In this document: positions 26,621-44,018 of the stretch, one piece after another
Numbering within the stretch: position 1 is the stretch's first letter
How the letters are laid out: every line of letters begins with the position of its first letter
From: an uncultured Clostridia bacterium
Lineage (GTDB): Bacteria > Bacillota > Clostridia > Christensenellales > Borkfalkiaceae
Direction: 5' to 3'
NCBI GenBank assembly: GCA_947628675.1
Contig: CANRAR010000009.1
Location: 1-46,931 of the forward strand
DNA length: 46,931 nt
Program-made: the position numbers and the translations under genes
Notes under the pieces: generated by a model
Databases searched by the model: none
Seen by the model: only the letters and a program-made list of their open reading frames with translations
What the model was told of the DNA's origin: nothing

Positions 26621-26709
26621 ACGCGTCATTCTGAACCCCCTTTCCGCGCCCTGCCCCTGTGGGGGCAGGGCGCGGAAAGGGGGTGAAGAATCCCGAACAA
26701 CGAAGTCCG
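26621..26709 (+). repeat. Family A repeat, copy 1 (22-bp variable stem)
   Basis: Left flank acgcgtcATTCTgaa and right flank tgaAGAATcccgaacaacg-aagtccg. Between them a perfect 22-bp stem (26636-26657 / 26662-26683) has sequence unlike other copies. Two partial left flanks (gcgtcattctgcccc at about 26565 and a variant at about 26593) precede it. Nothing else is seen in 26550-26780. Confidence 0.88.
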
Positions 26710-26786
26710 AAAGCCCTCTCTTGGGAGCCTTCCTTGTGGCTTTCGGGAAAGGCGACCGTATGATATGTGGAGCCTTTCTCCGCAAT

Positions 26787-26806
26787 GGGGGGGGTAGGGG
26801 GTGGGG
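26787..26806 (+). repeat. G-rich motif, G-quadruplex type
   Basis: Eight Gs, TA, five Gs, T, four Gs. It matches the GGGGTAGGGGGTGGGG ending of similar motifs at 34684 and 38820. Confidence 0.6.
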
Positions 26807-26830
26807 CACCGCTTCAATCTCCGACCGATT

Positions 26831-26851
26831 TTATAACAATATTCGTTATAA
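26831..26851. promoter_or_regulatory. Possible operator of the XRE-like gene
   Basis: Inverted repeat TTATAAC-N7-GTTATAA lies 27 nt upstream of a TACAAT -10 (26878-26883) and 63 nt before the HTH gene. Autoregulation is inferred. Confidence 0.45.
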
Positions 26852-26913
26852 CCCATGTAAATCGCAAAAAATTGCTCTACAATCGTGCCATACAACCAAA
26901 GAGAAGAAAAACT

Positions 26914-27135
26914 ATGGATTTGAACGGCATGGGCGCGCGCATAGAGGCGAGCATAAAAGAAAGGGGCTTTTTGCGCTTTGACTTTGCAAAGCGTCTCGGC
27001 ATCCGCGTAAGTACGCTCTACGAGATTTGCCGTTGCCGCCGCCTTCCCACCATGCAGGTATTTCTGAAACTTCTCGACCTTCTCGATATTTCCGCCGACT
27101 TCCTCCTCGGCATTTCTCCCGTTTCTCCCCAATAG
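26914..27135 (+). CDS. Small XRE-like helix-turn-helix protein
   Basis: A 73-residue Cro/C1-type HTH protein. The helix-turn-helix reads FDFAKRLGIRVSTLYEICRCRRLPTM (written here with positions ~22-47), followed by VFLKLLDLLDISADFLLG, the usual fourth-fifth helix of XRE domains. It has no extra domain. The ATG at 26914 is chosen because the longer frame runs through repeat DNA; only a weak AGAGAAGA ribosome site is present. A palindrome upstream may be its operator. It is not next to any recognisable phage or plasmid gene. Confidence 0.75.
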   Translation: MDLNGMGARIEASIKERGFLRFDFAKRLGIRVSTLYEICRCRRLPTMQVFLKLLDLLDISADFLLGISPVSPQ

Positions 27136-27150
27136 TGCCACATTTTTATT

Positions 27151-27180
27151 GCGCGCCCCGCGTTTCTCCGCGGGGCGCGC
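27151..27180 (+). terminator. GC hairpin after the HTH gene
   Basis: A perfect 12-bp stem (27151-27162 / 27169-27180) of G and C only. It lacks a T-tract, so termination may be weak. Confidence 0.5.
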
Positions 27181-27229
27181 CCCTATCTTCCCCCCCTCGC
27201 CAAAAAAAATGTAAAAATTCCGAAAAAAA

Positions 27230-27258
27230 TAGACAAACGCGCGCGGGCGTGATATAAT
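27230..27258 (+). promoter_or_regulatory. Promoter of hppA
   Basis: TAGACA (27230-27235), a 17-nt spacer and a perfect TATAAT (27253-27258). Confidence 0.8.
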
Positions 27259-27290
27259 ATGGAAAAAATTCGCAAGGAGTTTTTAAGAAC

Positions 27291-29525
27291 ATGGATCCCA
27301 AGTATCTCAACCTGCTCATGATCATCGTGATGTTCGCGGTGGTTTTGGGGCTCGGGTACGCGGCGCTCAACTTCTACCTCACCAAAAAACTCAAAGAGGG
27401 GAACGAGCGTATGCAGACCATTGCGGCGAAGATCCGCGAGGGCGCAAACGCCTTCATCTTCTACGAGTACAAGATCGTCGCCATCATTGCGGCGTGTGTC
27501 GCCGTCGTTTTGGGTCTATTCATCGCGTGGGAAGCGGGCATCGCCTTTCTCCTCGGCGCGGTGATGTCGGCAACGGCGGGCTTCATCGGCATGAAGATCG
27601 CCACCTACGCGAACGTGCGCGTCACCAACGCCGCGAACGAGAGCCGCAACATCGGCAAGACCTTGAAGGTCGCCTTCCGCGGCGGCTCGGTCATGGGGCT
27701 GTGCGTCGCGGGCTTTGCGCTTCTCGGCGCCATCATCGTCTACTGCTGCTTCGGCTGGGCGGAGGGCATGATCAACGTGAACGGCGCTACCGCCGCCGAG
27801 ATCGTCGTCGAGAACACCAACCCCATCACGCAGCAGACCTATAACCTCTCCATCGTGCTCTCGGGTTACGCCCTCGGCTGCTCCATCATCGCCCTCTTCA
27901 ACCGCGTGGGCGGCGGCATCTACACGAAGGCCGCGGACATGGGCGCCGACCTCGTCGGCAAGACGGAAGCGCACATCCCCGAGGACGACCCCCGCAACCC
28001 CGCCACCATTGCGGATAACGTGGGCGACAACGTGGGCGACGTCGCAGGTCTCGGCGCCGACCTTCTCGAGAGTTACATCGGCGCCATCATGGCAACGGTC
28101 ATCCTCGCCATCGAAGTGTTCGTGCACACCACCAACTTCACGTCGGCGGTGCTCCTTCAGAAGATGATCCTCTTCCCCATGCTCTTTGCGGGCATCGGGC
28201 TCATCGGGTGCGTCATCGGCATCTCTTATCCGCTCCTCAAGCCCAAACTTTCGGATAACCCCCACATGGAACTCAACCTCGCCACGTGGATCTCGGCGGG
28301 CGTCACGCTCGTCGGCGGGTGTCTTTTGTCCATCTTCATGTTTAAGGACGTCGTGGCGGAAGAACTCAAAGCGGCGAAGTTTGTAATCGGGCCCGTCACG
28401 CCTTGGGTATGCGCGGCGATCGGCGTCATCGCGGGCATCCTCATCGGCATCGTCTCCGAGTACTACACGAGTTACGATTACAAGCCCACCAAGGGCATTG
28501 CGAACGCCAGCAAGGAGGGCGCGGCGCTCACCATCACGCAGGGCATGGCAACGGGCATGATCTCGTGCATGATCCCCGTCGTCATCTTGGGCGTTGCCAT
28601 CTTTGCGAGTTTCGCGCTCGGCGGAATGTTCGGCGTCGGCTGCGGCGCCATGGGTATGCTCTCCTTCGTCGCGGCGACGGTCTCCGTCGATACCTACGGG
28701 CCCATCTCGGACAACGCGGGCGGCATCGCGGAGATGAGCGGCCTCGATGAAGACGTCCGCGCCATCACCGATAAACTCGATAGCGTCGGCAACACGACGG
28801 CGGCCATCGGCAAGGGCTTTGCCATCGGCTCGGCGGCGCTCGCAACGCTCTCCATGATGTCGAGTTACCTCTTCGCGGGCGGGCTCGTGCAGGAGATGCA
28901 AAACGGCATGGATATCTTCCTCAACATCGTCCGCGGCGACATCATCGTCGGCGCCATTCTGGGCGCGGCCATTCCCTTCCTCTTCTCGGGAATGCTCATC
29001 AACGCCGTCGCCAAGGCGGCGCGCAAGATGGTGGAGGAAGTCCGCCGGCAATTCCGCGACAATCCCAAGATCTTGACGGGCGAAGAGGATCCCGACAGCA
29101 AGCAGTGCATCACCATCTCCTCGCAGGGCGCACTCCGCCAGATGATCGTCCCCGCCGTCGTCGCCATCGCCATTCCCGTCGTGTGCGGGTTCATCTTCGG
29201 CGCGGGCTTCGTGGGAGGAATTCTCATCGGCGCAACGCTCTCCGCCATCATGCTCGCCATCTACACGGGCAACGCGGGCGGCGCGTGGGATAACGCCAAG
29301 AAATACATCGAAAGCGGCGGCGTCGAGGGCGTCAAGAAGGGCGAAGAGGGCTACGACGCCGTGCACGATGCGGCCGTCGTCGGCGACACCGTCGGCGATC
29401 CTTTGAAGGATACCGTCGGGCCCTCCCTCGACATCCTCATCAAGATCATGTCTACCATCTCCCTCGTCTGCGTTGTGGTGTTCAGTCATTGGAACCTCAT
29501 GAGCGCGGTCGGCCTCACATTCTAA
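27291..29525 (+). CDS. hppA: Membrane-bound pyrophosphatase, K+-dependent type
   Basis: A 744-residue ion-pumping pyrophosphatase with about 16 helices. The substrate site is intact: KAADMGADLVGKTEAHIPED, DDPRNP and DNVGDNVGDVAG around residues 215-255. GNTTAAIGKG near residue 501 carries Ala where K+-independent enzymes have Lys, so it should need K+. Whether it pumps Na+ or H+ is not decidable by eye. AAGGAG lies 11 nt upstream of the ATG. It recovers energy from PPi and is common in anaerobic Clostridia. Confidence 0.95.
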   Translation: MDPKYLNLLMIIVMFAVVLGLGYAALNFYLTKKLKEGNERMQTIAAKIREGANAFIFYEYKIVAIIAACVAVVLGLFIAWEAGIAFLLGAVMSATAGFIGMKIATYANVRVTNAANESRNIGKTLKVAFRGGSVMGLCVAGFALLGAIIVYCCFGWAEGMINVNGATAAEIVVENTNPITQQTYNLSIVLSGYALGCSIIALFNRVGGGIYTKAADMGADLVGKTEAHIPEDDPRNPATIADNVGDNVGDVAGLGADLLESYIGAIMATVILAIEVFVHTTNFTSAVLLQKMILFPMLFAGIGLIGCVIGISYPLLKPKLSDNPHMELNLATWISAGVTLVGGCLLSIFMFKDVVAEELKAAKFVIGPVTPWVCAAIGVIAGILIGIVSEYYTSYDYKPTKGIANASKEGAALTITQGMATGMISCMIPVVILGVAIFASFALGGMFGVGCGAMGMLSFVAATVSVDTYGPISDNAGGIAEMSGLDEDVRAITDKLDSVGNTTAAIGKGFAIGSAALATLSMMSSYLFAGGLVQEMQNGMDIFLNIVRGDIIVGAILGAAIPFLFSGMLINAVAKAARKMVEEVRRQFRDNPKILTGEEDPDSKQCITISSQGALRQMIVPAVVAIAIPVVCGFIFGAGFVGGILIGATLSAIMLAIYTGNAGGAWDNAKKYIESGGVEGVKKGEEGYDAVHDAAVVGDTVGDPLKDTVGPSLDILIKIMSTISLVCVVVFSHWNLMSAVGLTF

Positions 29526-29545
29526 CGCACAAACATAAAAGGGGA

Positions 29546-29567
29546 GCCCCTCTCCGCGGAGAGGGGC
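29546..29567 (+). repeat. Perfect 22-nt palindrome between hppA and next gene
   Basis: Arms gcccctctccg / cggagaggggc without spacer. It lacks a T-tract and lies 21 nt before the next ATG, so it may reduce read-through or stabilise hppA mRNA. Confidence 0.65.
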
Positions 29568-29587
29568 GTCTCTATGAGGAAAAGCAT

Positions 29588-30484
29588 ATGAGTTTTATCA
29601 CCGTTGTTTTGATTTTGGCATTTCTGTTTTTCGTGGGCAGCGTGTTCGGCTGGTGCCTCGAAGTGCTGTTCCGCCGCTTCTTCACGGCGAAGAAGTGGAT
29701 CAACCCCGGCTTTTTAACGGGGCCCTGCCTCCCGCTGTACGGTTTCGGCGTCGCGGGCTTATTCGGCATCTCCCGCATCCCCATGAACACGGGCTACGCG
29801 TGGCTCGATGCCGTCCTCATCATCCTCATCATGGGCGTCACCATGACGCTCATCGAGTACATCGCGGGGCTCATCTTCATCAAGGGGATGAAGATCAAAC
29901 TCTGGGACTACTCCAACCGCTGGGGGAACATCCAAGGCATCATCTGCCCGTTGTTCTCGCTCTTTTGGCTCCTCGTCTCGGCGGCGTTCTATTTCGTCAT
30001 CGATACGCCCGTTTTGGAGGCAGTCACGTGGTTCGTGAGCAACATTTGGTTCGCCTTCTTCGTGGGCATCTTCTTCGGCATTTTCTTTGTCGATCTCGGC
30101 TGCTCGCTGCACCTCGCAACGCGCATCAAAAAGTTTGCGGATGAGCACGGTATCATCGTCCACTACGAGAAATTCAAGGAGACGCTGCGCGATAAGCGCG
30201 AGGCGGCCAAAGAGAAGGTGGGCTTCGTGTTCCCGCTCGAGAAGATGGGCGAGTTCAAGGAGCAGCTCGCCTCCGCCAAGGAGAAATTCACCGCCCGCAT
30301 GGGCAGAAAGAAGAAAGCCGAAGCGGCAGAAGTGCCCGCCACCGAACCCGCCGAAGTTTCCGCCGCCGCGGAAGAAGCCCCCGAAACAAAAGAAACTTCC
30401 CCCGCCGAACCCGCCGAAAATTCCGCCCTCGCCAACGCCCCCGGAACGACCTCGGACGAGGCTCCCGAAGCGGATAAAAAATAA
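29588..30484 (+). CDS. Membrane protein of the CmpB family (PF06541-like)
   Basis: A 298-residue protein with about five helices in its first 190 residues. The opening FFVGSVFGWCLEVLFRRFF and WINPGFLTGPCLPLYGFG match the family often called ABC-transporter type IV, for which transport is not proven. After the last helix come a charged coiled stretch (~195-245) and a disordered tail of Ala, Glu and Pro repeats (~250-298). The ATG at 29588 follows TGAGGA. It is probably co-transcribed with hppA. Confidence 0.78.
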   Translation: MSFITVVLILAFLFFVGSVFGWCLEVLFRRFFTAKKWINPGFLTGPCLPLYGFGVAGLFGISRIPMNTGYAWLDAVLIILIMGVTMTLIEYIAGLIFIKGMKIKLWDYSNRWGNIQGIICPLFSLFWLLVSAAFYFVIDTPVLEAVTWFVSNIWFAFFVGIFFGIFFVDLGCSLHLATRIKKFADEHGIIVHYEKFKETLRDKREAAKEKVGFVFPLEKMGEFKEQLASAKEKFTARMGRKKKAEAAEVPATEPAEVSAAAEEAPETKETSPAEPAENSALANAPGTTSDEAPEADKK

Positions 30485-30507
30485 CACCCGCCGACTGCGC
30501 CACCACC

Positions 30508-30559
30508 GCGTCATTCTGAGGGAGCGTAGCGACCGAAGAATCCCGAGCAACGCAGTCCG
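30508..30559 (+). repeat. Family A repeat, copy 2 (short core)
   Basis: Flanks gcgtcATTCTga and cgAAGAATcccgagcaacg-cagtccg enclose only gggagcgtagcgac, which lacks a long stem. It may be closest to a minimal form. Confidence 0.8.
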
Positions 30560-30579
30560 CTTCGCCCGTGTGCGTTATC

Positions 30580-30652
30580 CCTCATACCGAGCCGCGCGCC
30601 CGTCCGCTTCTGCGGACGGGCGCGCGGTGAGTGTATCTTCCCTCAACGCAGT
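30580..30652 (+). repeat. Family B repeat, copy 1 (16-bp variable stem)
   Basis: Flanks cctcATACcgag and tgagtGTATcttccctcaacg-cagtc enclose a perfect 16-bp GC stem (30592-30607 / 30612-30627) with loop TTCT. Confidence 0.87.
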
Positions 30653-30738
30653 CCCCCCCCAAAAAAAACCAACAAAAGAGCGTCCCGCAAACAAACCGCG
30701 GGGCGCCCTTCTTAAAAGGAAATAAATGGGGGGCAAAT

Positions 30739-31497
30739 TTACATGACGACGATATTCTTCTCGATGAACTTCTCTTTGAGGTCGGCGGGGAAGTTGTCGT
30801 CGGTGATGAGCACGTCGATATCCTCGAGCCGCGCAAAGGAATAGGGCATGATCTTCCCGATCTTGGAACTGTCAAGCATCATGTACATCTCCTTCGCCTT
30901 CTTGCGCGCCATCTTCAGAAGGTCGGCCTCCACCATGGAGCCGCACGAGAACCCGTTCTCGAGCGTAAACGCCGAGGCGGAGATGATGGCAAGTTCGAAG
31001 TTGGTCGTCTCGAAGTACGCCTTTGCAACGGGGGAGGCGGTGGAAAGGTTATCCTTCAGCACCTGCCCGCCGAGCATCGTGACGTCGATGTTCTTCTTCT
31101 GTGCGAGTTCGATGGCGACTGCCAGCCCGTTCGTGAACACGTGGATGTTGATGTCGGGCAGTTCCTTCGCAAAGGAGAGCGCCGTCGTGCCGCCGTCCAT
31201 AAAGAGCGAACTGTTTTCGGTGATGAGGCTTGCCGCCTTCTGCGCAATTTTGATCTTCTCGTCGGTGTGGATGGCGGTCTTCTTCACATAGGGTTCGCCC
31301 GAGACCTTCTGCACCTCCTTCACCGACATAGCGCCGCCGCGCACACGGATAATGCGACCCTGCTGTTCGAGTTGGAACAGGTCGCGGCGGAGCGTCATTT
31401 GCGAGACGTTGGGAAAAAAGTCATCGAGTTGTTCAAGCGTGAGTTTGCCGCGCTTATCCAAAAGTTCCGCGATCTCTTCGATGCGTTCTCTCTTCAT
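30739..31497 (-). CDS. DeoR family transcriptional regulator
   Basis: A 252-residue regulator. The N-terminal winged HTH has RERIEEIAELLDKRGKLTLE and VSQMTLRRDLFQLEQQGRI-IRVRGGA, and the C-terminal sugar-phosphate sensor domain has FMDGGTTALSFAKEL and CGSMVEADLLKMARKKAKEMY. The ATG at 31497 follows GGAGG; upstream in-frame codons lie in the promoter. It is transcribed against the local plus-strand bias and has no sugar-metabolism neighbour, so its target is unknown. It may act on the palindrome-rich divergent region. Confidence 0.9.
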   Translation of the reverse strand: MKRERIEEIAELLDKRGKLTLEQLDDFFPNVSQMTLRRDLFQLEQQGRIIRVRGGAMSVKEVQKVSGEPYVKKTAIHTDEKIKIAQKAASLITENSSLFMDGGTTALSFAKELPDINIHVFTNGLAVAIELAQKKNIDVTMLGGQVLKDNLSTASPVAKAYFETTNFELAIISASAFTLENGFSCGSMVEADLLKMARKKAKEMYMMLDSSKIGKIMPYSFARLEDIDVLITDDNFPADLKEKFIEKNIVVM

Positions 31498-31516
31498 AAA
31501 AACCTCCGTAAACCGT

Positions 31517-31545
31517 ATAGTAATGCAAGTATTCTCTCTATGCAA
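31517..31545 (-). promoter_or_regulatory. Promoter of the DeoR gene
   Basis: On the minus strand TTGCAT (31540-31545), a 17-nt spacer and TACTAT (31517-31522). The spacer ends in a second TTGCAT, a direct repeat that could be an operator half. Confidence 0.55.
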
Positions 31546-31593
31546 AAGATTAACATATAATTTCAGTTTTGGCAAGCGTTTTCACAAAAAATC

Positions 31594-31682
31594 TTTACAT
31601 TTTTTTGTAAATTTCAATAAATTTTGTAATTTCGAGACAATATGTTCATTTTGTGACACAATTTTTGTGAAAAAATCACAAA
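31594..31682. promoter_or_regulatory. Cluster of AT-rich palindromes
   Basis: Inverted repeats tttaca-N6-tgtaaa (31594-31611), TTGTG-A-CACAA (31651-31661) and TTTGTGA-N5-TCACAAA (31664-31682) lie between divergent deoR and the 31844 gene. The last resembles CRP/FNR-type half-sites. The remaining DNA to 31843 holds only the downstream promoter. Confidence 0.5.
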
Positions 31683-31808
31683 TTTTACGTTTACGCCGTC
31701 CCACACGGCGAACGCCGCGCCGCGTTGCCGCTTTTTGCCGCAATTTGCCGAAATGGGGCGAATGCGCGCAGTTTCTCGGCGGAAGTTATTTTCGGGCGCG
31801 GAAAACGA

Positions 31809-31837
31809 TTGCCTTTTTGCGCGCGGAATGGTAAAAT
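31809..31837 (+). promoter_or_regulatory. Promoter with leaderless geometry
   Basis: TTGCCT (31809-31814), a 17-nt spacer and TAAAAT (31832-31837). The A of the ATG is the seventh base after the -10, as for rsmG. Confidence 0.65.
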
Positions 31838-31843
31838 ACTGCT

Positions 31844-32467
31844 ATGGATACGAGGTATTTGCAGGCGCTCGACGAATATTTTTGCGCAAATTATTCGGAC
31901 TACGTGCGGCTTGCGGCGCTCGAGGGCTACGAGCGCCCCGAACTCATCTATATCGAGCGGGACGGCAACATCGCGCGGCGCGATTCCTCCGCCCTGCGGC
32001 TCTGCGAGCAGAAAAACGCGCAGGAACTTCTCGCGCGCTTCAAAGAGGGGCTCGTCGATACCGACTACACCTTCAACTTCACCGTCGCCTCCTGGTTTTC
32101 CCGCTTCCGCGACCTCTTCCGCAAACACACCTTCAAAAAGGTGCTCGCCTCCACTTTGAAAAAGTACGATGAAACTTGGGAGAGCGCGGGGGAAAAACTC
32201 AACATCGAGCCCCGCTTTTGGCGTATGATCGTCAAGGGCAAGTTGTACCCCGAAAAGTGCACCGTCCTTGCGCTTGCGCTCGTCTGTCATATGCGCACCG
32301 CCGATCTTCAAAGCCTTCTCAACGTCTGCGGGTTCGAACTCAAAAAGGAGAGCGTCCGCGATGTCGTCGTGAGTTATCTCATGGAGCAGAAGGTATTCAA
32401 CGCCGAGATGCGCGACGGGTGCCTTTCCGAATACCACATCACCACCGTCCCCATCCGCCGCGCCTGA
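31844..32467 (+). CDS. Unknown protein with XRE-associated C-terminal domain
   Basis: A 207-residue soluble protein. Residues ~1-95 are unassigned. Residues ~115-205 (RFWRMIVKGKLYPEKCTVLA, ALVCHMRTADLQSLLNVCGF, SVRDVVVSYLMEQKVF) match a helical, HTH-like C-terminal module seen in various Clostridial regulatory proteins; I recall it by pattern only. There is no Shine-Dalgarno, and the ATG coincides with the predicted transcription start. It lies 41 nt upstream of cysE and is probably co-transcribed with cysE-cysS. Confidence 0.7.
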   Translation: MDTRYLQALDEYFCANYSDYVRLAALEGYERPELIYIERDGNIARRDSSALRLCEQKNAQELLARFKEGLVDTDYTFNFTVASWFSRFRDLFRKHTFKKVLASTLKKYDETWESAGEKLNIEPRFWRMIVKGKLYPEKCTVLALALVCHMRTADLQSLLNVCGFELKKESVRDVVVSYLMEQKVFNAEMRDGCLSEYHITTVPIRRA

Positions 32468-32508
32468 AACAAAACGGGGCGCATACAATAGGAGCAAGGA
32501 GAAAAGCC

Positions 32509-33219
32509 GTGTTCTTTCGCAAACTCAACATGGATATTGCTGCGGCCAAGCGCAACGACCCCGCTGCGCGCAACCGCTTTGAAATTTGGCTGACCTATTC
32601 GGGGGTGCGCGCACTCATCTGGCACCGCCGCGCCGCCGTACTTTGGAAGATGCACCTCAAATTCCTCGCGCGCTGGGCTTCCCAGTGGGCGAAATTCCGC
32701 ACGGGCATCGAGATCCACCCCGCCGCCAAGATTGCCCCCGGCGTCTTCATCGACCACGGCTCGGGCGTCGTCATCGGTGAAACGGCGGAAGTCGAAGAGG
32801 GCGTCGTCATCTATCAGGGCGTCACGCTCGGCGGCACGGGTAAAGAGAAGGGCAAGCGCCATCCCACCATCCGAAAGAACGCCGTCATCGCCTGCGGCGC
32901 CAAGGTTTTGGGCGGCTTTACGGTGGGCGAGGGAGCCCGCATCGGCGCGGGCGCCGTCGTCTTAAAGGAAGTCCCCCCGTTTGCGACCGTCGTCGGCGTC
33001 CCGGGGCGCGTCGTGCGCATCAACGGCGAGAAGCCGCAAGATCTCATCCCCGAAAAGGAAGACCCCATCGTGCAGGAACTCTGCGCTCTCCGCGAGCGCG
33101 TCTTTGCGCTCGAAGAGATGCTCGCGGCGCGGCAACAAGAGGCGCAGGCAGACGGGGCGCAACCCGCAGAGCAGACAGACGGGGCACAAAACGAGGAGCA
33201 GACAGATGAAAATTTATAA
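32509..33219 (+). CDS. cysE: Serine O-acetyltransferase
   Basis: A 236-residue left-handed beta-helix enzyme that makes O-acetylserine from serine and acetyl-CoA. Hexapeptide repeats run from GIEIHPAAKIAPGVFIDHG through GVVIGETAEVEEGVVIYQG to GEGARIGAGAVVLKEV. The active-site His lies in FIDHGSG. The start is a GTG with AAGGAG 6 nt upstream. The C-terminal ~25 residues are a low-complexity tail of Gln, Ala, Asp and Glu repeats. It overlaps cysS by 14 nt. Confidence 0.92.
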   Translation: MFFRKLNMDIAAAKRNDPAARNRFEIWLTYSGVRALIWHRRAAVLWKMHLKFLARWASQWAKFRTGIEIHPAAKIAPGVFIDHGSGVVIGETAEVEEGVVIYQGVTLGGTGKEKGKRHPTIRKNAVIACGAKVLGGFTVGEGARIGAGAVVLKEVPPFATVVGVPGRVVRINGEKPQDLIPEKEDPIVQELCALRERVFALEEMLAARQQEAQADGAQPAEQTDGAQNEEQTDENL

Positions 33220-34591: not shown

Positions 34592-34614
34592 ATTTGTCCC
34601 TCGCTTATCCTCCC

Positions 34615-34667
34615 GCGTCATTCTGAACCCCCGCAAGGGGGTGAAGAATCCCGAACAACGCAGTCCG
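34615..34667 (+). repeat. Family A repeat, copy 3 (5-bp stem)
   Basis: gcgtcATTCTgaa, CCCCC-gcaa-GGGGG, tgaAGAATcccgaacaacg and cagtccg. This is a short-core version of the same layout. Confidence 0.87.
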
Positions 34668-34671
34668 TCTT

Positions 34672-34780: not shown

Positions 34781-34831
34781 GCGCCCTCATTCCCCATCAA
34801 CCCAACACAAATCCAAAAAGGAAACACCAAT

Positions 34832-36643: not shown

Positions 36644-36657
36644 CCCTCCCGCCCGTA

Positions 36658-36818
36658 CCTGCCCCCTTTGCAAGGGTCGCGGAACGCACCATGAGCACCA
36701 GCCCTGTGGGCTGTGCGAGGCGTTCCGCGGAGAGTTCGCGCATTGGTAGGCGCGAACGGTGACCGAGGGCGGGCTTCCACCCGCCCGAGAAGGCTCCGCC
36801 GTAGGCGGTGGTGGGGGT
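36658..36818 (+). repeat. 161-bp multi-hairpin element, copy 1 (family C)
   Basis: By eye identical to 42306-42466. In order it can form cgcggaacgc/gcgttccgcg enclosing a smaller stem-loop (cagccc/gggctg), gttcgcgc/gcgcgaac, gggcggg/cccgccc and ccgcc/ggcgg. It starts 15 nt after the alaS stop. It contains no convincing coding frame. Confidence 0.9.
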
Positions 36819-36895
36819 TGATCGCACCTCCGCCTGTGCATAGCTGCTCCTTTTTGAAGGGGGCGGCTCCGCCGTAGGCGGTGGTGGGGGTTGAT
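36791..36895 (+). repeat. 31-bp direct repeat at the end of family C
   Basis: The final 31 nt around the C1 terminus (36791-36821, ggctccgccgtaggcggtgg and on) recurs exactly at 36865-36895, 74 bp downstream. The sequence between is non-coding. Confidence 0.85.
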
Positions 36896-36921
36896 TGTTC
36901 CCCCTTCGTACCCTTATGTCC

Positions 36922-36982
36922 CCTCATACCGAGCCTCGCGCCGACGCCACAGCGTCGGCGCGAGGCGAGTGTATCTTCCCTC
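36922..36982 (+). repeat. Family B repeat, copy 2 (15-bp variable stem)
   Basis: cctcATACcga, a perfect 15-bp stem (36933-36947 / 36952-36966) with loop CACA, then gagtGTATcttccctca. The right flank ends 6 nt before the next gene's ribosome site. Confidence 0.87.
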
Positions 36983-36999
36983 AAAAAAAGGAGCCCCAT

Positions 37000-37563: not shown

Positions 37564-37577
37564 CCGCATCCCGCCCA

Positions 37578-37630
37578 TCCCCCTCCCCGCCTCTATAAGA
37601 GGCGGGGAGGGGGACACAGGGGGAGGGGCA
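37578..37630 (+). repeat. Family F repeat, copy 1 (stem plus G-quadruplex tail)
   Basis: A perfect 16-bp stem (37579-37594 / 37598-37613, loop ATA) whose right arm runs into GGGGAGGGGGACACAGGGGG-AGGGG, four G-tracts at 37604-37628. The rest of 37564-37753 is A/T-rich and non-coding. Confidence 0.85.
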
Positions 37631-37753
37631 CAAAACCGCGCCCTTCTCCCCCGAAAATCAATATGTCGTGCTTCGGCGGCCGCATCCCCCGAAATATGCA
37701 AAAAATATTTTCCTTTTTTCAAAAAAAATTATGATTTCGCAATTCAAAACCGC

Positions 37754-37782
37754 TTGACGGAACTTTTTATACGCCCTATAAT
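37754..37782 (+). promoter_or_regulatory. Promoter of rplM-rpsI
   Basis: TTGACG (37754-37759), a 17-nt spacer and a perfect TATAAT (37777-37782). Confidence 0.85.
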
Positions 37783-37828
37783 AAAGAAGTAAACGGGCGA
37801 AAGGCGGGCACTCCGCAGCGCATTGCGC

Positions 37829-37845
37829 GTTGCCGCGTTTCGGCA
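37829..37845 (+). promoter_or_regulatory. Hairpin in the rplM leader
   Basis: ttgccg-N5-cggcaa ends 8 nt before the ribosome site of rplM in a ~75-nt leader. An L13 leader motif is known in Bacillota; I cannot confirm that this one matches it. Confidence 0.4.
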
Positions 37846-37865
37846 ATTACGGTAAGGAGACAGAT

Positions 37866-38297
37866 ATGAAAACGTATATGGCAAACTCTCAAACGGTTGA
37901 GAGAAAGTGGTACGTTGTAGACGCGGCCGGCGTCCCCCTCGGAAGGCTTGCTTCCAAGGTGGCGGCCATTCTTCGCGGCAAAAACAAGCCCACGTACACC
38001 CCCAATGTCGATACGGGCGATTTCGTCATCGTCATCAACAGCGATAAGGCGGTGCTCACGGGCAAGAAGCTGGAAAATAAATTCTATCGCTATCACACCG
38101 GCTACATCGGCGGCCTCAAAGAAATTTCCTACGGCAAAATGATGTCCGAGCGCAGCGATGTCGCCGTATACGAGGCAGTCAGGGGAATGCTCCCGAAGAA
38201 TTCTCTCGGGCGGCAGATGATCAAAAAGCTCCGCATTTTCAAGGGCGCAGAGCACAACCATCAGGCGCAGAAGCCCGAACCTTTGAAATTATTTTAA
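37866..38297 (+). CDS. rplM: 50S ribosomal protein L13
   Basis: A 143-residue L13 of normal length. It has [55 protein letters not shown] and the [19 protein letters not shown] block. TAAGGAG precedes the ATG at 37866. It is followed 12 nt later by rpsI, the conserved L13-S9 pair. Confidence 0.97.
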
Positions 38298-38309
38298 GGA
38301 GAGCACGTC

Positions 38310-38723
38310 ATGGCTAAGGCGAATTTGAAGAAAAAGTTGCAATTCTGGGGCACCGGGAGAAGGAAGAAGGCGATCGCCCGTGTCCGTTTGCTCCCCGCAG
38401 GGAGCGGCGCCATCGTCATCAACGATAGAACGCTCGAAGATTATTTCCCGCAGGGCACCACGCAATACGTCGTCAAGCAGCCCCTCGTCGAAGTGGGCGC
38501 AGAGGGCAAGTACGATATCTACGTCAACGTCATCGGCGGCGGCTACACGGGTCAGGCGGGCGCCATCCGCCTCGGCATTGCGAGGGCGCTTCTCGAAGCC
38601 GAACCCGAAACGCGTCCCGCGCTGAAAAAGGCGGGCTTCCTCACGCGGGATCCCCGCGTCAAGGAGCGCAAGAAATACGGTCTCAAAAAGGCTCGCCGCG
38701 CTCCCCAGTTCTCGAAGAGATAA
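38310..38723 (+). CDS. rpsI: 30S ribosomal protein S9
   Basis: A 137-residue S9. [34 protein letters not shown] and the C-terminal [17 protein letters not shown], whose last Arg reaches the P-site tRNA, are all present. AAGGAG precedes the ATG. Confidence 0.97.
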
Positions 38724-38730
38724 AAAACCA

Positions 38731-38761
38731 AGAGGTACAAATCGTACCTCTTTCTTTTTTT
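38731..38761 (+). terminator. Terminator of rplM-rpsI
   Basis: agaggtac / gtacctct with a 5-nt loop, followed by a T-rich run broken by one C. Confidence 0.92.
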
Positions 38762-38809
38762 GGTTAGAAACTGCGCCCAACGCAGCCCCCCTTGCGAGTT
38801 TTCCTTTTT

Positions 38810-38844
38810 GCCCCCTCCTGGGAGGGGGGGGTAGGGGGGTGGGG
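38810..38844 (+). repeat. G-quadruplex motif with C-rich arm
   Basis: ccccctcct pairs with the start of the G-run, then tracts at 38820-38844 separated by A, TA and T. It is almost identical to 34672-34706. Confidence 0.75.
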
Positions 38845-38865
38845 CATCCCCTCACTCTTTCCCCC

Positions 38866-38973
38866 GCGTCATTCTGCCCCGCCCGCACCATTCGTCTACT
38901 AAGGGCGGCACGAGCGCGTAGCGCGAAGTAACCCCCCGCAAGGGGGGTGAAGAATCCCGAACAACGCAGTCCG
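38866..38973 (+). repeat. Family A repeat, copy 4, carrying a nested family E element
   Basis: The A left flank gcgtcATTCTg is separated from CCCCCC-gcaa-GGGGGG-tgaAGAATcccg by a family E unit ctacTAAGggcggcacgag...gcgAAGTA (38895-38930). Confidence 0.8.
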
Positions 38974-38983
38974 TCGCCCCCGT

Positions 38984-39340
38984 CTACGGCGTCTGCTCTT
39001 TTCCTCCCGCACCGTTTGTCGAGCCCGCGCCCGTCGAGCCAGAACCGCCCGCCGAGCCCGCGCCCGTCAAACCCGAACCCGACCCCGCCGCATCCCCCGC
39101 GCCGATGTGCTTCACCGCCTTCTCGTGCCTGTCGAGAAAGGCAGAGAGCGCGCTCGCGCCCGCAGTCTCAGTCTGCTCCCCGTAGGCGGGCGGGGCGAAC
39201 GCCCTGTCCGCGGCGTTCGGCGCCGTCTCTGGCGCCCCGACCTTTTCAGCCCGCTCGGGCGCCCCGCTCTTTTCGGGTGTCTCGGGCAAGATGAGCGCGG
39301 AGAGGGTGTCGAGCAGCTCGAAAATTCCGAATTTTTCCAA
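38984..39340 (-). CDS. Unknown small protein with Gly/Ser-rich tail
   Basis: A 118-residue protein. The start is a TTG at 39340 with AAAGGAGG 7 nt upstream; the longer frame begins in promoter DNA of the divergent gene. The first ~20 residues (LEKFGIFELLDTLSALIL) form an amphipathic helix. A Pro/Ala/Glu stretch, a short helix ALSAFLDRHEKAVKHI and a final ~35 residues of Gly, Ser, Ala and Thr repeats follow. No family is recognised. It runs opposite to the local bias and its 3' end touches repeat A4. Confidence 0.6.
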   Translation of the reverse strand: MEKFGIFELLDTLSALILPETPEKSGAPERAEKVGAPETAPNAADRAFAPPAYGEQTETAGASALSAFLDRHEKAVKHIGAGDAAGSGSGLTGAGSAGGSGSTGAGSTNGAGGKEQTP

Positions 39341-39401
39341 AAAATCGCCTCCTTTTCTGTAAAATTTTTTTAAGAAAAGTGCAACTTTCGCAACTTTTTG
39401 A

Positions 39402-39430
39402 TTGCAAAAAGCCCCGATATAGTATATAAT
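39402..39430 (+). promoter_or_regulatory. Promoter of the large surface protein gene
   Basis: TTGCAA (39402-39407), a 17-nt spacer and a perfect TATAAT (39425-39430), about 54 nt upstream of the ATG. Confidence 0.82.
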
Positions 39431-39483
39431 AAGGTTTGTATCGTTAGAACGCAAAATCTCTCTTTTTGATAAGGATAACTTCC

Positions 39484-41976
39484 ATGAGAAAAGGTCTGAA
39501 AAAATTCCTCTGCATCGTCACGGCGGCAACGCTCGTCTCTTCCGCGCTGTCCTTCACCGCTTGCGGATATACGTTCACCCCGCCCAAAGGCGGGCCCGAA
39601 GCCCAAGCGGAGGTCACCTCCAACGGCGGCTTTGCCGTGAAGAAGGGCGACTATATCTACTTCATCAACGGCGTGGAGACGTACACCTCGGATAACGAGT
39701 ACGGCACCCCGCAAAAGGGTTCGCTCATGCGCATCAAGGCGGAAGACGCCGATAAGGGCACCAACACCGCAGAGACGGTCATCCCTTCACTCATGGTCGC
39801 GGGCGACTATACCGCCGGGCTCTTCATCTACGGCGACCGCATCTACTACGCCACGCCCAACAACATGAAGAACACCTCGGGCGTCGTCGAAAACACCTAC
39901 CTCGATTTCAAGAGCGCCAAACTCGACGGCACGGACATTCAGGATTATTTCTACGTATCGGATAACACCACGCAGTATCGCTATGTGGAAGTGGACGGCA
40001 CCGTCTACCTCCTGTACGCGGGCACGGTGAAAAAGGCAAGTTCCACGTCGGATGTCTCCGCCCTCCTCTCTTACAACACCAAGACGGATACCACCACCGA
40101 ACTTGTGAGCGGCTACCTCGAATTCATGTTCAACAGTTTCTCCAAGGAGGACCCTTGGATCTACTACACGATGTCCGTTCCCAACGAGGCGGGCTCGCAG
40201 GACGGCACGAGCACCCTGCAATTCAGCTATCAGCAACTCTTCCGCGTCCGCGCCGACTGGACGGCGGAGAAGGCCGCAGGCGCCTACGATGCCAAAGCGC
40301 CCTACAAGTACACGTGGACGGAGAAATTCCTCGAGGCGACGGAGGGCGAAGCGCCCTACTCCAACCTCGGCGAGATCGTCCTCGACGGCCGCGGCGCACT
40401 TTCGGGCGCCCCCACGCAGTACAACCACTCCGCGTCCGAGCCCCTCTCCGAGAGTTTCGGCTACACCTACACCCTCCGCTCGTACACCGATGACGGCGTC
40501 TATTTCACCCGTGCCGACGGCGGCAGCGATGCGGATACCTACCTCTACTTCCTCCCCGAGGCGAGCCTTGCAAGCGGCTGGGATTCCGTCACGGGCAATG
40601 CCGACGCCAAACTCGAAAAGGTCTCCGTCGGCGATAAGACGACGGGTGCCGAAATCTACTTCATCGAGAAGGACGCCGAGAACAAGAACGTCCACCATTA
40701 TCTCTGCGTCACCGACGGTGAGATCCACAACATCACGGCGGCAAATGACGGCTCCGTCGCAAGCGATGTCCGCATCGCCACCGATGTGAGCGGCGCCACC
40801 CTCAAATTCATCGACAATACGTCGAGCAACGACTACAAGTACGTCTACTACACCAAGTCCAACGGCAGCGGCACCTCGGTGGAGCGCGCCGTCTACAACG
40901 GCGAGGCCGACAACTACAAGAACCTCTCCTTCGACGGGGAGAACAACGATGAATGGCGCGCCGTCAAACTGCTCGACGTGCAACACGCCACGGGCTGGTA
41001 CGATTTCGAGATCATCGGCGGTACGGTGTTCTATGCCGACGCCGCCACCGTCGGCGCCGCGTCCTACAACTACGTCACCGCGGTCAACATCAAGAATGCG
41101 GACGGCACGTTGAAGAACAACGCCGAACTCGCCGCGTTCAATGAGAAGTATAACGAGATCATGGGCACCGACGGGCTCGTGCAGACGCTCTCGTCCAACA
41201 GCAACTCTAAACTCTCCGCCCTCATCTCCTACTATTTCAAGACGGGCGAGACAAGCGCCTACGAGGACAACCTCACCGAGGCGCAGGAAAACGGCCGTTC
41301 GGATACCTACCTCTTCACCGAGGCGGAAAAGACGGCGTTCAAGGCGTTTGTCGAGAACAAGGGCGATACGTCGGACGATGCACTCTTCACCGCGGATAGT
41401 TATAAGGACGGCGACAAGTACTACCGCACCTATTCGTACTTTGCAACGAGGATCGGCAAGGTGAACGAGGAAGATGCGGAGGCAATGGCGCTCGCATGGC
41501 GCAACGCCATCCAGCGTGACGCCGCCCCCGAGGAGACGGAAGAGACGGGTCTCGCCGGTTGGGAGATCGCCCTCATCGTCATCGCCTGCGTCATCGCCGT
41601 GGGCGGCGGCGCCGGGCTTGCGGTGTACTTCATCCTCCGCAAGCGCAAGAAGGAGAACGCTCCCGCACCCGAGCGCATGAAGGTGGATACGACGGACGAC
41701 CGCAGCGTCAATGTCTACGACGCCCCCGAAGAGCCCGAACCCGAAGCGCTCGCCGAACCCATAGAAACCACGGAACCCGCCGAAGAAGCGGTTCCCGCGG
41801 AAGAGGCAACTCCCGCCGAAGCGGCAGAGCCCGCGACTCCCGCCGAGGAAGCACCCGTTGAGCCCGCGGCTCCTACCGAAACGGCAGAACCCGCGACCCC
41901 CGCCGAGGAAGCACCCGTTGAGCCTGCGGCTCCTACCGAAACGGCAGAACCCGCGGAGCCCTCCGCGAAGGACTAA
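39484..41976 (+). CDS. Large surface protein, single TM helix and repeated cytoplasmic tail
   Basis: An 830-residue protein. It has a signal peptide with a possible lipid Cys27 (LSFTAC; Phe at -3 is atypical). The ectodomain of ~650 residues has repeated Y-x-Y strands (GDYIYFINGVETY, GDRIYYATPNN, KYVYYTKSNG), suggesting a DUF5050-like beta-propeller. One helix (WEIALIVIACVIAVGGGAGL, ~residues 690-715) is followed by KRKK and a ~110-residue Pro/Ala/Glu tail. The tail ends in two tandem 20-residue repeats (TETAEPATPAEEAPVEPAAP) encoded by 60-bp DNA repeats near 41820-41950. AAGGA precedes the ATG. Function unknown. Confidence 0.82.
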   Translation: MRKGLKKFLCIVTAATLVSSALSFTACGYTFTPPKGGPEAQAEVTSNGGFAVKKGDYIYFINGVETYTSDNEYGTPQKGSLMRIKAEDADKGTNTAETVIPSLMVAGDYTAGLFIYGDRIYYATPNNMKNTSGVVENTYLDFKSAKLDGTDIQDYFYVSDNTTQYRYVEVDGTVYLLYAGTVKKASSTSDVSALLSYNTKTDTTTELVSGYLEFMFNSFSKEDPWIYYTMSVPNEAGSQDGTSTLQFSYQQLFRVRADWTAEKAAGAYDAKAPYKYTWTEKFLEATEGEAPYSNLGEIVLDGRGALSGAPTQYNHSASEPLSESFGYTYTLRSYTDDGVYFTRADGGSDADTYLYFLPEASLASGWDSVTGNADAKLEKVSVGDKTTGAEIYFIEKDAENKNVHHYLCVTDGEIHNITAANDGSVASDVRIATDVSGATLKFIDNTSSNDYKYVYYTKSNGSGTSVERAVYNGEADNYKNLSFDGENNDEWRAVKLLDVQHATGWYDFEIIGGTVFYADAATVGAASYNYVTAVNIKNADGTLKNNAELAAFNEKYNEIMGTDGLVQTLSSNSNSKLSALISYYFKTGETSAYEDNLTEAQENGRSDTYLFTEAEKTAFKAFVENKGDTSDDALFTADSYKDGDKYYRTYSYFATRIGKVNEEDAEAMALAWRNAIQRDAAPEETEETGLAGWEIALIVIACVIAVGGGAGLAVYFILRKRKKENAPAPERMKVDTTDDRSVNVYDAPEEPEPEALAEPIETTEPAEEAVPAEEATPAEAAEPATPAEEAPVEPAAPTETAEPATPAEEAPVEPAAPTETAEPAEPSAKD

Positions 41977-41977
41977 C

Positions 41978-42182
41978 GCGTCATTCTGCCCCGCGCGCTC
42001 GTCGGCGCAGGGCGAACTTCGCAAGCGTCCGCCTGCGGCAAACGCTTTGCTTTCACGCCCGCGCCTCCTCTTCCCCAAAAACCTTTGCTACGCAAATCTT
42101 TTTTGGGAGCCCTATATCTACTAAGCGCGGCACGAGCCAAAGGCGAAGTAGCGCAGCGAAGAATCCCGAGAAACGAAGTCCG
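41978..42182 (+). repeat. Family A copy 5 split by D and E elements
   Basis: The A left flank begins 3 nt after the stop codon of the surface protein gene. A 157-bp family D unit (41978-42134) ends in a family E start (ctactaagcgcggcacg), E continues to gcgaagta, and the A right flank gcgAAGAATcccgagaaacg closes at 42182. D includes the hairpin ccccaaaaa...ttttttggg. Confidence 0.85.
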
Positions 42183-42237
42183 ACCACCCTTCGCCCTGCT
42201 CCCACCGACGAGCCCAAAGAATAACAGTTGTTTCTTG

Positions 42238-42264
42238 AGCGCCTCCCTTACGGAGGCGCTTTTC
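42238..42264 (+). terminator. Displaced terminator of the surface protein gene
   Basis: agcgcctcc / ggaggcgct with loop CTTAC followed by TTTT. It lies 260 nt past the stop at 41976, with a repeat composite in between. Confidence 0.75.
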
Positions 42265-42305
42265 CATACGCGTCATCCTCCTGCGCGCCCCCCGCCTGCC
42301 CATGG

Positions 42306-42466
42306 CTGCCCCCTTTGCAAGGGTCGCGGAACGCACCATGAGCACCAGCCCTGTGGGCTGTGCGAGGCGTTCCGCGGAGAGTTCGCGCATTGGTAGGCGC
42401 GAACGGTGACCGAGGGCGGGCTTCCACCCGCCCGAGAAGGCTCCGCCGTAGGCGGTGGTGGGGGTT
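42306..42466 (+). repeat. 161-bp multi-hairpin element, copy 2 (family C)
   Basis: By eye identical over its whole length to 36658-36818, 5.6 kb away. The flanking sequences differ, so the boundaries of the unit are well defined on both sides. Confidence 0.92.
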
Positions 42467-42495
42467 ATATTTTCCTCGCCCCGCGCCTGTTTTAC

Positions 42496-42652
42496 GCGTC
42501 ATTCTGCCCCGCGCGCTCGTCGGCGCAGGGCGAACTTCGCAAGCGTCCGCCTGCGGCAAACGCTTTGCTTTCACGCCCGCGCCTCCTCTTCCCAAAAAAC
42601 TTTTGCTACGCAAATCTTTTTTGGGAACCCTGTATCTACTAAGCGCGGCACG
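42496..42652 (+). repeat. Family D repeat, copy 2
   Basis: 157 bp aligned without gaps to 41978-42134 with only a few substitutions. It starts with the A left flank and ends in the E start ctactaagcgcggcacg. Confidence 0.9.
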
Positions 42653-42670
42653 TCCCGCCCGCACTGTTTT

Positions 42671-42756
42671 CGACCAAGGGCGGCACGAGCCGTAGGCGAA
42701 GTACGGGGGTTACGGCGGTTCCTGCCGCCGTAACCGGGGACACAGGGGGAGGGGTT
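42671..42756 (+). repeat. Family E fragment and family F repeat, copy 2
   Basis: accaagggcggcacgagccg...gcgaagta (42672-42703) leads into a perfect 11-bp stem (42708-42718 / 42725-42735) and the F tail ggggacacagggggagggg. Only three G-tracts are present here. Nothing else is seen up to the promoter at 42854. Confidence 0.75.
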
Positions 42757-42853
42757 TTCTCCACTTACCGCGCCATTCCTGCCGTCCCGGCAAAAATTCG
42801 TGTAAAAAGTTCATAAAAAGCGATAATTTTTTCGTAAACACATAAAAAAACAG

Positions 42854-42882
42854 TTTACAAAAAAAATAAATACTAATATAAT
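42854..42882 (+). promoter_or_regulatory. Promoter of the zinc-ribbon gene
   Basis: TTTACA (42854-42859), a 17-nt A-rich spacer and a perfect TATAAT (42877-42882). Confidence 0.85.
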
Positions 42883-42933
42883 TTATTAGCCTATGGGTCG
42901 AGTGTTTTTACCGACGATACGGGAGGAAGATAC

Positions 42934-43422
42934 ATGGTCAAGTATATGAAGTGTCCGCGTTGCGAACTCAACTACATCGACGCGGAAAAACAGGAATATT
43001 GCGACATCTGTCTCAAAGAGATGAAGGGGCTCATGACGGAGTCCGACGAGATCGAGGAAGCCGAAGAGGAACTCCCCACGGAGATCTGCCCCGTCTGCGG
43101 GGAGAACATGATGCGTCCCGGCGAGAAGATGTGCGAGGAGTGCCGCAAGAAGGCGGAGTACGAGGAAGAGGAGCCCGATCCCGAAGAGGACGACGAGTGG
43201 CGCGAGTACCTCGATGACGACACCGATGCCGAACTCGACGAGGAGATGGGGGAGATCGACGAGACGTTCGACGAAGAGCCCGACCTCGAGGAGGAGGACG
43301 AGGAGTACGAGAGCGAGGACGAAGAGGATCTCGAGTACGTCACGGGCGACGAGATCTACACGCTCTCGGGCGACGACGATGACGACGATGACGACGACGA
43401 AAAATCCGACGACGACTTCTAA
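42934..43422 (+). CDS. Double zinc-ribbon protein with polyacidic tail
   Basis: A 162-residue protein. Two CxxC pairs near the start (CPRC at ~7, CDIC at ~23) and two further on (CPVC at ~52, CEEC at ~67) can hold two zinc ions. From ~residue 75 to the end it is almost entirely Glu and Asp, including nine consecutive Asp residues near the C-terminus. GGGAGG precedes the ATG. The tail may mimic nucleic acid or bind cations or basic proteins; this is inference. It has its own strong promoter and terminator. Confidence 0.82.
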   Translation: MVKYMKCPRCELNYIDAEKQEYCDICLKEMKGLMTESDEIEEAEEELPTEICPVCGENMMRPGEKMCEECRKKAEYEEEEPDPEEDDEWREYLDDDTDAELDEEMGEIDETFDEEPDLEEEDEEYESEDEEDLEYVTGDEIYTLSGDDDDDDDDDEKSDDDF

Positions 43423-43450
43423 CCCCGCGCATTTCCCCAATCAATCAACG

Positions 43451-43476
43451 AAGCGCCCCCATTCAGGGGCGCTTTT
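43451..43476 (+). terminator. Terminator of the zinc-ribbon gene
   Basis: aagcgcccc / ggggcgctt with a 6-nt loop and TTTT. Confidence 0.88.
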
Positions 43477-43512
43477 CATATAGTACAATTAGTAACCCCG
43501 CCCTTTTCCACC

Positions 43513-43597
43513 GCGTCATTCTGCCCCGCGCGCACTATTCGTCTACTAAGCGCGGCACGAGCCGTAGGTGAAGTAAGAATCCCGAACAACGCAGTCC
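43513..43597 (+). repeat. Family A copy 6 with nested family E element
   Basis: gcgtcATTCTgcccc, then E (gtctacTAAGcgcggcacgagccgtaggtgAAGTA), directly joined to AGAATcccgaacaacg and cagtcc. Here E takes the place of the hairpin core. Confidence 0.85.
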
Positions 43598-43620
43598 AAC
43601 CAAGCCCCAATCCATCAACA

Positions 43621-43648
43621 AAGCGCCTTTATTCCGAAGGCGCTTTTC
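43621..43648 (+). terminator. Second aagcgcc-type terminator
   Basis: aagcgcctt / aaggcgctt followed by TTTT. It and the preceding tccatcaaca resemble the terminator at 43451, so repeat A6 is bracketed by two similar terminators. No gene lies between. Confidence 0.8.
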
Positions 43649-43724
43649 TTATGCTATAAAATTGTCATTTCGCCCGACGCGTAGCGGCGCACGGAGTAGC
43701 GTAGTCGCCCCCCCTCTTTCCACC

Positions 43725-43813
43725 GCGTCATTCTGAACCCATTGCCCGCGCCCGCCCCTTCGAAGAGGGGCGGGCGCGGGCAATGGGTGAAGAATCCCGA
43801 GTAACGCAGTCCG
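43725..43813 (+). repeat. Family A repeat, copy 7 (22-bp variable stem)
   Basis: gcgtcATTCTgaa, a perfect 22-bp stem (43738-43759 / 43766-43787) closed by a U-G pair and CGAA, then tgaAGAATcccgagtaacg and cagtccg. The stem sequence is unrelated to the 22-bp stem of copy 1. Confidence 0.9.
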
Positions 43814-43867
43814 ACCAAGTCCCCGTCTCGGGGGCTTTCCTTTTGCCCCACGCGGTATATTAGATAT

Positions 43868-43919
43868 CCCCCTCCCCGCGCGCAAAGCGCGCGGGGAGGG
43901 GGACACAGGGGGAGGGGGC
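43868..43919 (+). repeat. Family F repeat, copy 3 (stem plus G-quadruplex tail)
   Basis: A perfect 16-bp stem (43868-43883 / 43887-43902, loop AAA) running into four G-tracts at 43893-43918 with the same ACACA loop as copy 1. Confidence 0.87.
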
Positions 43920-43945
43920 ATCTCTTGTCTGCCCCTCGCCCCACC

Positions 43946-44018
43946 CCTCATACGCTCACCCGTGCCGCGCCCACAAAGGCGCGGCATGGGTGAGCGTATC
44001 TTCCCCCAAACCCAGTCC
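43946..44018 (+). repeat. Family B repeat, copy 3 (22-pair variable stem)
   Basis: ctcATAC and GTATcttcccccaa flanks are part of a 22-pair stem (43950-43971 / 43978-43999) with one G-U and loop CACAAA, ending near cagtccg. Confidence 0.87.

Follow-up and report, generated by a model that had tools for sequence, protein, structure and literature searches.

REP-like repeats with conserved frames and variable, nearly perfectly paired cores in an uncultured Clostridia bacterium

How can a family of dispersed repeats keep its edges constant and carry a different hairpin core from copy to copy, with each core almost perfectly paired? The question is raised by contig C9 of an uncultured Clostridia genome (G000; 1.53 Mb in 34 contigs, 93.9% complete), the whole of which, 46,931 nucleotides, is referred to here as the window. 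The repeats of its family A share the frame CGTC-ATTCT-GA-(core)-GA-AGAAT-CCCGANNAACG.AGTCC, which occurs seven times between 26624 and 43812, always on the plus strand and never on the minus strand (Table 1). A1, A2, A3 and A7 enclose one simple core each, and the composite cores of A4, A5 and A6 hold a second, nested module, D. Left halves of the frame (CGCGTCATTCTG) also stand without right halves, both in the window and in tandem at loci L031, L132 and L226, which suggests recombination between halves. Full A copies are absent from positions 1 to 26000 of the window, where the genes up to about 22 kb lie mostly on the minus strand.

Family B, headed by CCTC and bounded by ATAC...GTAT, is represented three times in the window; the copy B3 lacks the CGAG edge and was left out of the B counts. 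A preliminary description had put the stems at 22 pairs in A1, A7 and B3, 5 in A3, 16 in B1 and 15 in B2; these figures are right to within about one pair, as we count 23 pairs in A1 and A7 and 6 in A3, with B1 and B2 as given. None of 200 dinucleotide shuffles folded as well as A1 (z -11.3) or as B1 (z -8.1). Modules C and D likewise combine conserved ends with varied paired centres. The pattern of C is CCCTCCCCG...CGGGGAGGG around a variable paired apex; its right part, GGGGGACACAGGGGGAGGGG, was found at 34 places with up to 2 mismatches vs 30 for the reversed control, so this pattern is weak. D modules, GGCACGAG(paired core)GAAGTA, are often nested within A frames, and carry 81 different short paired cores by a context-based count in which doubles are possible. 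At gathering scores no Rfam family matched positions 26000-46931 of the window, and no plasmid was found to match A1 with its surroundings. Nine of ten nearby proteins matched Pfam, among others as H+-pyrophosphatase, CysS, alanyl-tRNA synthetase-type domains, L13, S9 and DegV.

Table 1. Positions of the repeat copies, modules and half-copies in the window
Feature	Position	Strand	Description
Left half of frame A, no right half	26566..26576	+	
A1	26624..26708	+	CGTC head, ATTCT, long core (arm ACCCCCTTTCCGCGCCCTGCCCC, loop TGTG), AGAAT, tail
A2	30509..30558	+	short core GAGGGAGCGTAGCGACCGA
B1	30584..30636	+	CCTC head, then ATACCGAG...GTAT; arm CCGCGCGCCCGTCCGC, loop TTCT; 16 pairs
A3	34616..34666	+	short core GAACCCCCGCAAGGGGGTGA
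B2	36926..36974	+	arm GCCTCGCGCCGACGC, loop CACA; 15 pairs
C	37578..37614	+	TCCCCCTCCCCG(variable paired apex)CGGGGAGGGGGA
A4	38867..38972	+	composite core: D module (38907-38930) and CCCCCC/GGGGGG hairpin
A5	41979..42181	+	composite copy, long insert, D module at 42129-42150
Left half of frame A, no right half	42496..42506	+	
D module outside any A frame	42682..42703	+	GGCACGAG(paired core)GAAGTA
A6	43514..43597	+	core built of D module (43554-43575)
A7	43726..43812	+	long core (arm ACCCATTGCCCGCGCCCGCCCCT, loop TCGAAG)
C, second copy	43867..43903	+	different apex
B3	43950..43999	+	ATACGCTC...GAGCGTAT; 21 of 22 positions paired, the odd one G.T by eye

The combination of constant flanks with a variable, near-perfectly paired core, as first described, is borne out well beyond the window. 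The right flank of frame A matched 94 times genome-wide with up to 2 mismatches, its reversed control not at all, and the frame is present in sister species: in a genus sample of 101 genomes, the flank occurred with no more than 1 mismatch in 31, the window's own genome counted. Judged by rplM-rpsI, the nearest relatives are G008 (94%, positions 1-644), G047 (90%), G093 (88%) and G003 (87%, positions 382-897). A 25-mer of the flank retrieved 45 stretches in genome contigs, in a search from which the window's own genome was possibly excluded; all 45 belong to five bins, which are titled uncultured Clostridia bacterium and derive from samples 'Lapin'.

By genome coordinates we assembled 240 distinct A places (94 in G000, 66 in G047, 50 in G008, 16 in G003 and 14 in G093), drawn from 94, 75, 52, 35 and 14 matches, respectively, the last listing with no more than 1 mismatch. 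Core counts exclude 83 of them (53 with no left frame within 70 nt, 17 E-type, 12 with nested D and 1 with a nested left half), leaving 157 simple-core copies from the five genomes. The head, scored at the 227 places with a left frame, is CGTC in 218, TGTC in 8 and CCTC in 1. The stem foot is ATTCT/AGAAT in 151 of the 157 simple copies and ATCCT/AGGAT in 4, and the core is flanked by GA/GA in 147 and by TC/GA, which lengthens the stem, in 8. CCCGA follows AGAAT at 232 of the 240 places, and a GTCCA variant occurs at 32. The scanned stretches were picked mostly around A copies, so family B is sampled and its count of 65 places (25 in G047, 24 in G008, 16 in G000) is incomplete; 63 of these carry the CCTC head. 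The E-type variant, CATCCTGAGCC...GAAGGATCCC, was seen at 17 places, namely L002, L040, L043, L052, L057 and L067 of G000 and copies in G003; its core of 41-42 nt contains no simple palindrome and differs among the G003 copies.

Pairing in the long cores is close to complete. Stems of at least 12 bp are found in 56 of the 157 simple copies, with 13 to 24 pairs, loops of 3-10 nt and 49 distinct arms, and together they contain 1071 Watson-Crick pairs and 3 internal mismatches (T.G, A.A, G.G). An earlier, less complete copy set pointed in the same direction, with 963 pairs and 4 mismatches. Three disrupted long cores (L002, L158-1078, L201) were placed in the short group. The 31 family B stems of at least 9 pairs comprise 28 distinct arms, 491 pairs and 4 mismatches (A.C, A.C, G.T, T.C). 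Among the long A cores listed, nearly all have, by eye, a C-rich 5' arm and a G-rich 3' arm. The 101 copies with short cores fall into a limited number of recurring types, the commonest being GAGCGTAGCG with 14 copies; within the earlier, less complete set, 6 copies shared the core of A2 and 3 shared that of A3. The commonest short cores have a GTA loop closed by GC/GC (GCGTAGC); stable DNA minihairpins with GNA loops are known. An assembly artefact was considered and rejected: the arms, at most 26 bp, are shorter than the reads and k-mers usual for such assemblies, and the pattern was seen again in separate genome bins. A terminator control for G.U and mismatch rates, built from hairpins before T runs, was discarded, as it included chance hairpins and 74 of its 344 hairpins were perfect.

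Sorted from the loop outwards, the cores fall into classes by their tips, which are combined with outer stems that vary. Nine A hairpins share the tip of A1, CCTGCCCC, and have 9 outer stems between them; CCGAGCGC is the tip of 13 A hairpins, on 8 outer stems, and the tip of B1, CCGTCCGC, sits on 10 outer stems in 11 hairpins (9 B and 2 A). That of B2, GCCGACGC, is present in 5 hairpins. The claim that cores are unrelated from copy to copy was thus too strong, given classes that recur genome-wide and in sister species, and to that extent the cores do fall into families that align to each other, an outcome the preliminary description had named as counting against it. Sharing of tips between A and B concerns few cases: the longest common tip, 16 nt, was reached in 6 of 1000 dinucleotide shuffles, and 3 A arms have at least 8 nt in common with B, a number reached in 253 of 1000 shuffles and so not unusual. 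A single chimera among the 240 places, L122 of G008, has the head of B and the tail of A, with a perfect core between them.

Differences between related hairpins mostly come in complementary pairs. Comparing each of 84 A and B hairpins of at least 12 pairs with its nearest copy gave 44 neighbour pairs that could be scored ungapped, 17 that needed a gap and were left unscored, and 4 hairpins without a near neighbour. In the scored pairs, which are not independent of one another, we counted 44 two-arm changes, all complementary (24 transitions and 20 transversions, some of which may be register shifts), vs 5 one-arm changes. Covariation, which the preliminary description had proposed to test, is present when 13 cores of the CCGAGCGC class and close relatives of it are aligned: 8 cells changed on both sides vs 1.6 in shuffles; none of 500 shuffles reached 8, and slid controls gave at most 1 such cell. 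The covariation score also exceeded all shuffles, while the number of pair types did not (6 vs 6.3); this alignment was chosen by class, and its related rows inflate covariation tests.

The 84 hairpins form 153 pairs with the same 8-nt tip and loop length. Of these pairs, 24 had identical loops and 20 had exactly inverted ones, vs a mean of 8.4 and a maximum of 19 in 2000 permutations within length and 1.4 under random relabelling. The pairs are non-independent, as a small number of copies contribute to many of them, and little weight attaches to short loops, AAAA/TTTT for example. Both orientations occur in 5 of 29 tip classes, as CACA/TGTG, AAC/GTT, GTA/TAC, TTCT/AGAA, AAAA/TTTT, CTCTA/TAGAG and ATA/TAT. 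Differing loops of neighbours are mostly not inversions (43 other, 9 inverted).

At the same site in different genomes, the core can differ within a preserved setting. L031 of G000, L132 of G008 and L226 of G047 form the only orthologous comparison that is clean on both sides near the frame: their left flanks align at 84 to 92% over 249 to 285 bp, and all three retain the gene end, the GTCCA variant, the 3' flank and the greater part of the terminator stem that comes next. Their cores are GGGAGCGTAGCGACC, ACCCCCGTAGGGGGT and CCCCCGTAGGGGG, respectively, that of G000 differing on both arms and those of G008 and G047 by one A-T pair. The upstream tandem half-copies of L031 differ too, so the replaced tract may exceed the core; no exact donor for the L031 core was found. 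At the site of A3, the copy that G047 carries next to the same gene is framed by ATCCT...AGGAT and encloses a different core; its left flank aligns over 290 bp. Cores also differ at L045/L208, L049/L119, L036/L123, L007/L131, L061/L138, L038/L121 and L142/L222, seven comparisons that involve nested modules or one well-aligned side, so that independent insertion is possible there; L042 and L130 kept an identical core. Three neighbouring units at L163 of G047 have in common the sequence 3' of the core. Units 1 and 2 are one base apart over roughly 100 bp from AAGAAT on, and their cores differ by one paired (double) C.G to T.A change; the one-sided differences are an uncompensated A in unit 2 and one further base in unit 1.

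We consider it moderately probable that A and B are REP-like repeats in which recombination exchanges cores between copies and hairpin template switching keeps the two arms identical, both processes being deduced from the patterns above. The CGTC-headed A and CCTC-headed B hairpins, mostly downstream of genes, have a conserved outer edge, which in A is the 5-bp outer stem with its GA/GA internal loop. Under this reading, the distal stem would not be inherited as a fixed sequence; recombination or gene conversion between dispersed copies, via short shared edges or shared stem blocks, would instead swap it whole and so produce mosaic combinations of tip and outer stem. Against the reading weigh the single clean orthologous comparison, the lack of an exact donor for L031, the few A-B tip matches, the predominance of non-inverted loop differences between neighbours, the core kept in L042 and L130 and the one-sided bases of L163; a core might also be swapped through unequal crossing-over in tandem half-copies. 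Hairpin template switching (quasipalindrome correction) would then copy one arm onto the other and leave the stem perfect, and its intermolecular form would flip the loop. Recombination among copies would thus account for the recurring classes, the mosaics and the chimera, and arm-to-arm template switching for the perfect stems and flipped loops. That cores are created or corrected as units, as the preliminary description held, is supported by the few mismatches among the A pairs, the excess of two-arm changes, the inverted loops and the orthologous core difference, but its "must" was too strong, since compensatory selection could also be at work.

Such selection, acting on a transcribed RNA hairpin (a stability element or processing site) that keeps its pairing as cores diverge by compensatory point mutation, is in our judgement unlikely, though it has the genomic position of the repeats in its favour. 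By a simple ORF model, 51 of the 240 places lie between convergent and 14 between divergent genes, 2 lie inside ORFs and 65 have a neighbour missing; between tandem genes, 74 copies are on the gene strand vs 34 against it (binomial P 0.00015), an excess that leaves room for, and hints at, an RNA role that exchange and switching do not need. Single-mismatch states also exist (T.G in L141, A.C in L159). However, one-arm states are few (5 vs the 44 two-arm changes), G.T does not exceed A.C (2 vs 2 among 7 mismatches, a small number), and loop inversion would be unexpected. Moreover, the genus contains frames with hardly any pairing inside them: in 13 sequences from G059 and G095, an invariant ATTCT-GA-GC...GC-GA-AGAAT surrounds an interior that varies in sequence but not in length and shows almost no paired variation, and their consensus fold comprises the frame and a weak inner helix only, so copies of the frame can persist in the genus without a perfect hairpin. 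The frames of G030 and G098 were also seen, as in G059 and G095, around variable, mostly unpaired interiors of near-constant length.

The cores could alternatively be small palindromic mobile elements that enter the ATTCT...AGAAT frame, or replace each other in it, in either orientation through a putative transposase or recombinase. Classes recurring at many sites, D modules nested in A frames and loops in both orientations would fit this rather unlikely account, but insertion alone does not give the paired changes within a class, and a search restricted to the Y1 (RAYT-type) transposase, PF01797, found no match in the window's own genome, which is 93.9% complete. Four of 16 relatives have a Y1 transposase, including G047 but not G008, G093 or G003. 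A dedicated enzyme inserting inverted copies, as suggested at the outset, is not required by the data. It is quite doubtful that the perfect hairpin tips themselves, of about 8 to 16 bp, are mobile cassettes moving in either orientation between families A and B, and possibly C and D, with the conserved ends as a docking frame. Creation of each core de novo, by template switching from neighbouring sequence and with no exchange between copies, would suit the near-perfect stems of varied sequence and has a published precedent in perfect stems created by template switching, as described in the available part of the source (PMC8794818), but is very improbable because core classes recur at distant sites and in sister species, and many must thus have been copied and not made anew.

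No paper was found for the string ATTCTGAGCGAAG, matches to other repeat strings had titles that look unrelated, nothing useful was found on organelle double-hairpin elements, and no paper joining "extragenic palindrom" and "template switch" was found in a body of literature thin on subscription journals. Integron attC sites have conserved ends and a variable folded centre, an arrangement that frame A may resemble.

Closer comparisons are offered by REP sequences. As described in the accessible text of Di Nocera et al. (2013, PMC3733652), CGTC-tagged REPs carry CGTC, TGTC or CCTC as a head that lies outside the stem, and the stem starts with AT; stems measure 8-9 bp and loops 4-5 nt, and tails mostly fit CCA. 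They are intergenic, mostly between unidirectional or convergent genes, occur predominantly as head-to-head dimers and have no dedicated transposase. The authors note that stems and loops are heterogeneous within families, and they read the frequency of G.T pairs as support for RNA function. Judged against that part of the source, A and B are similar in their head, AT foot and position after genes and in that no transposase was found in the host; A differs in its 5 bp plus GA/GA plus distal stem, its long stems (13-24 pairs) and loops of 3-10 nt, its CCCGA tail, which is not CCA-like, and the rarity of G.T pairs (PMC3733652). Because A and B fit the CGTC superfamily in head, AT foot and position, but not in stem, loop and tail, we class them as REP-like.

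The Neisserial dRS3, ATTCCC(N8)GGGAAT (PMC3898611), stated to correspond to CGTC-1 REPs (PMC3733652), is a close precedent for frame A in its short conserved inverted ends and variable interior, but that interior is fixed at 8 nt, and neither long paired cores nor core exchange is described in the accessible portion of the source (PMC3898611). GTAG REPs, as far as the available text goes, consist of a conserved tetranucleotide and a complementary region of variable base composition, and vary between classes tied to RAYT genes (PMC3686654), whereas A varies among copies of one family; A also differs from these RAYT-mobilised repeats in its CGTC head and in a host with no Y1 gene found. Template-switch homogenisation, in the parts of the sources at hand, resembles A and B in perfect arms and two-arm changes (PMC8604942, PMC8794818, PMC6649704), and its intermolecular form, which is reported to homogenise arms and invert the spacer (PMC8604942), resembles them in the inverted loops, whose count of 20 in the 153 non-independent pairs was reached in none of the 2000 permutations. 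The subjects of these papers, in those parts, are yeast genes, RNA genes and the mitochondrial genes of nematomorphs; dispersed bacterial repeats with exchanged cores are not among them.

The usual description of a REP family is a consensus hairpin; A, a single family found in this genome and its sisters, has dozens of different nearly perfect stems. Families A and B thus offer a natural test bed, rich in copies and in related species, for distinguishing compensatory hairpin change due to template switching or exchange from that due to RNA selection, and if the share of switching and exchange is large, covariation in such repeats would alone be no evidence of RNA function.

The region downstream of rpsI was inspected in relatives as well. 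Its stop codon was located in 13 of 29 relatives, and no A frame was seen by eye in the roughly 330 bases 3' of rpsI in those 13. At L103 and L106, two of these places, which belong to more distant relatives, the sequence 3' of rpsI contains a hairpin resembling B (CATACCGAGGCCCC...GAGTGTAT) and hairpins resembling D.
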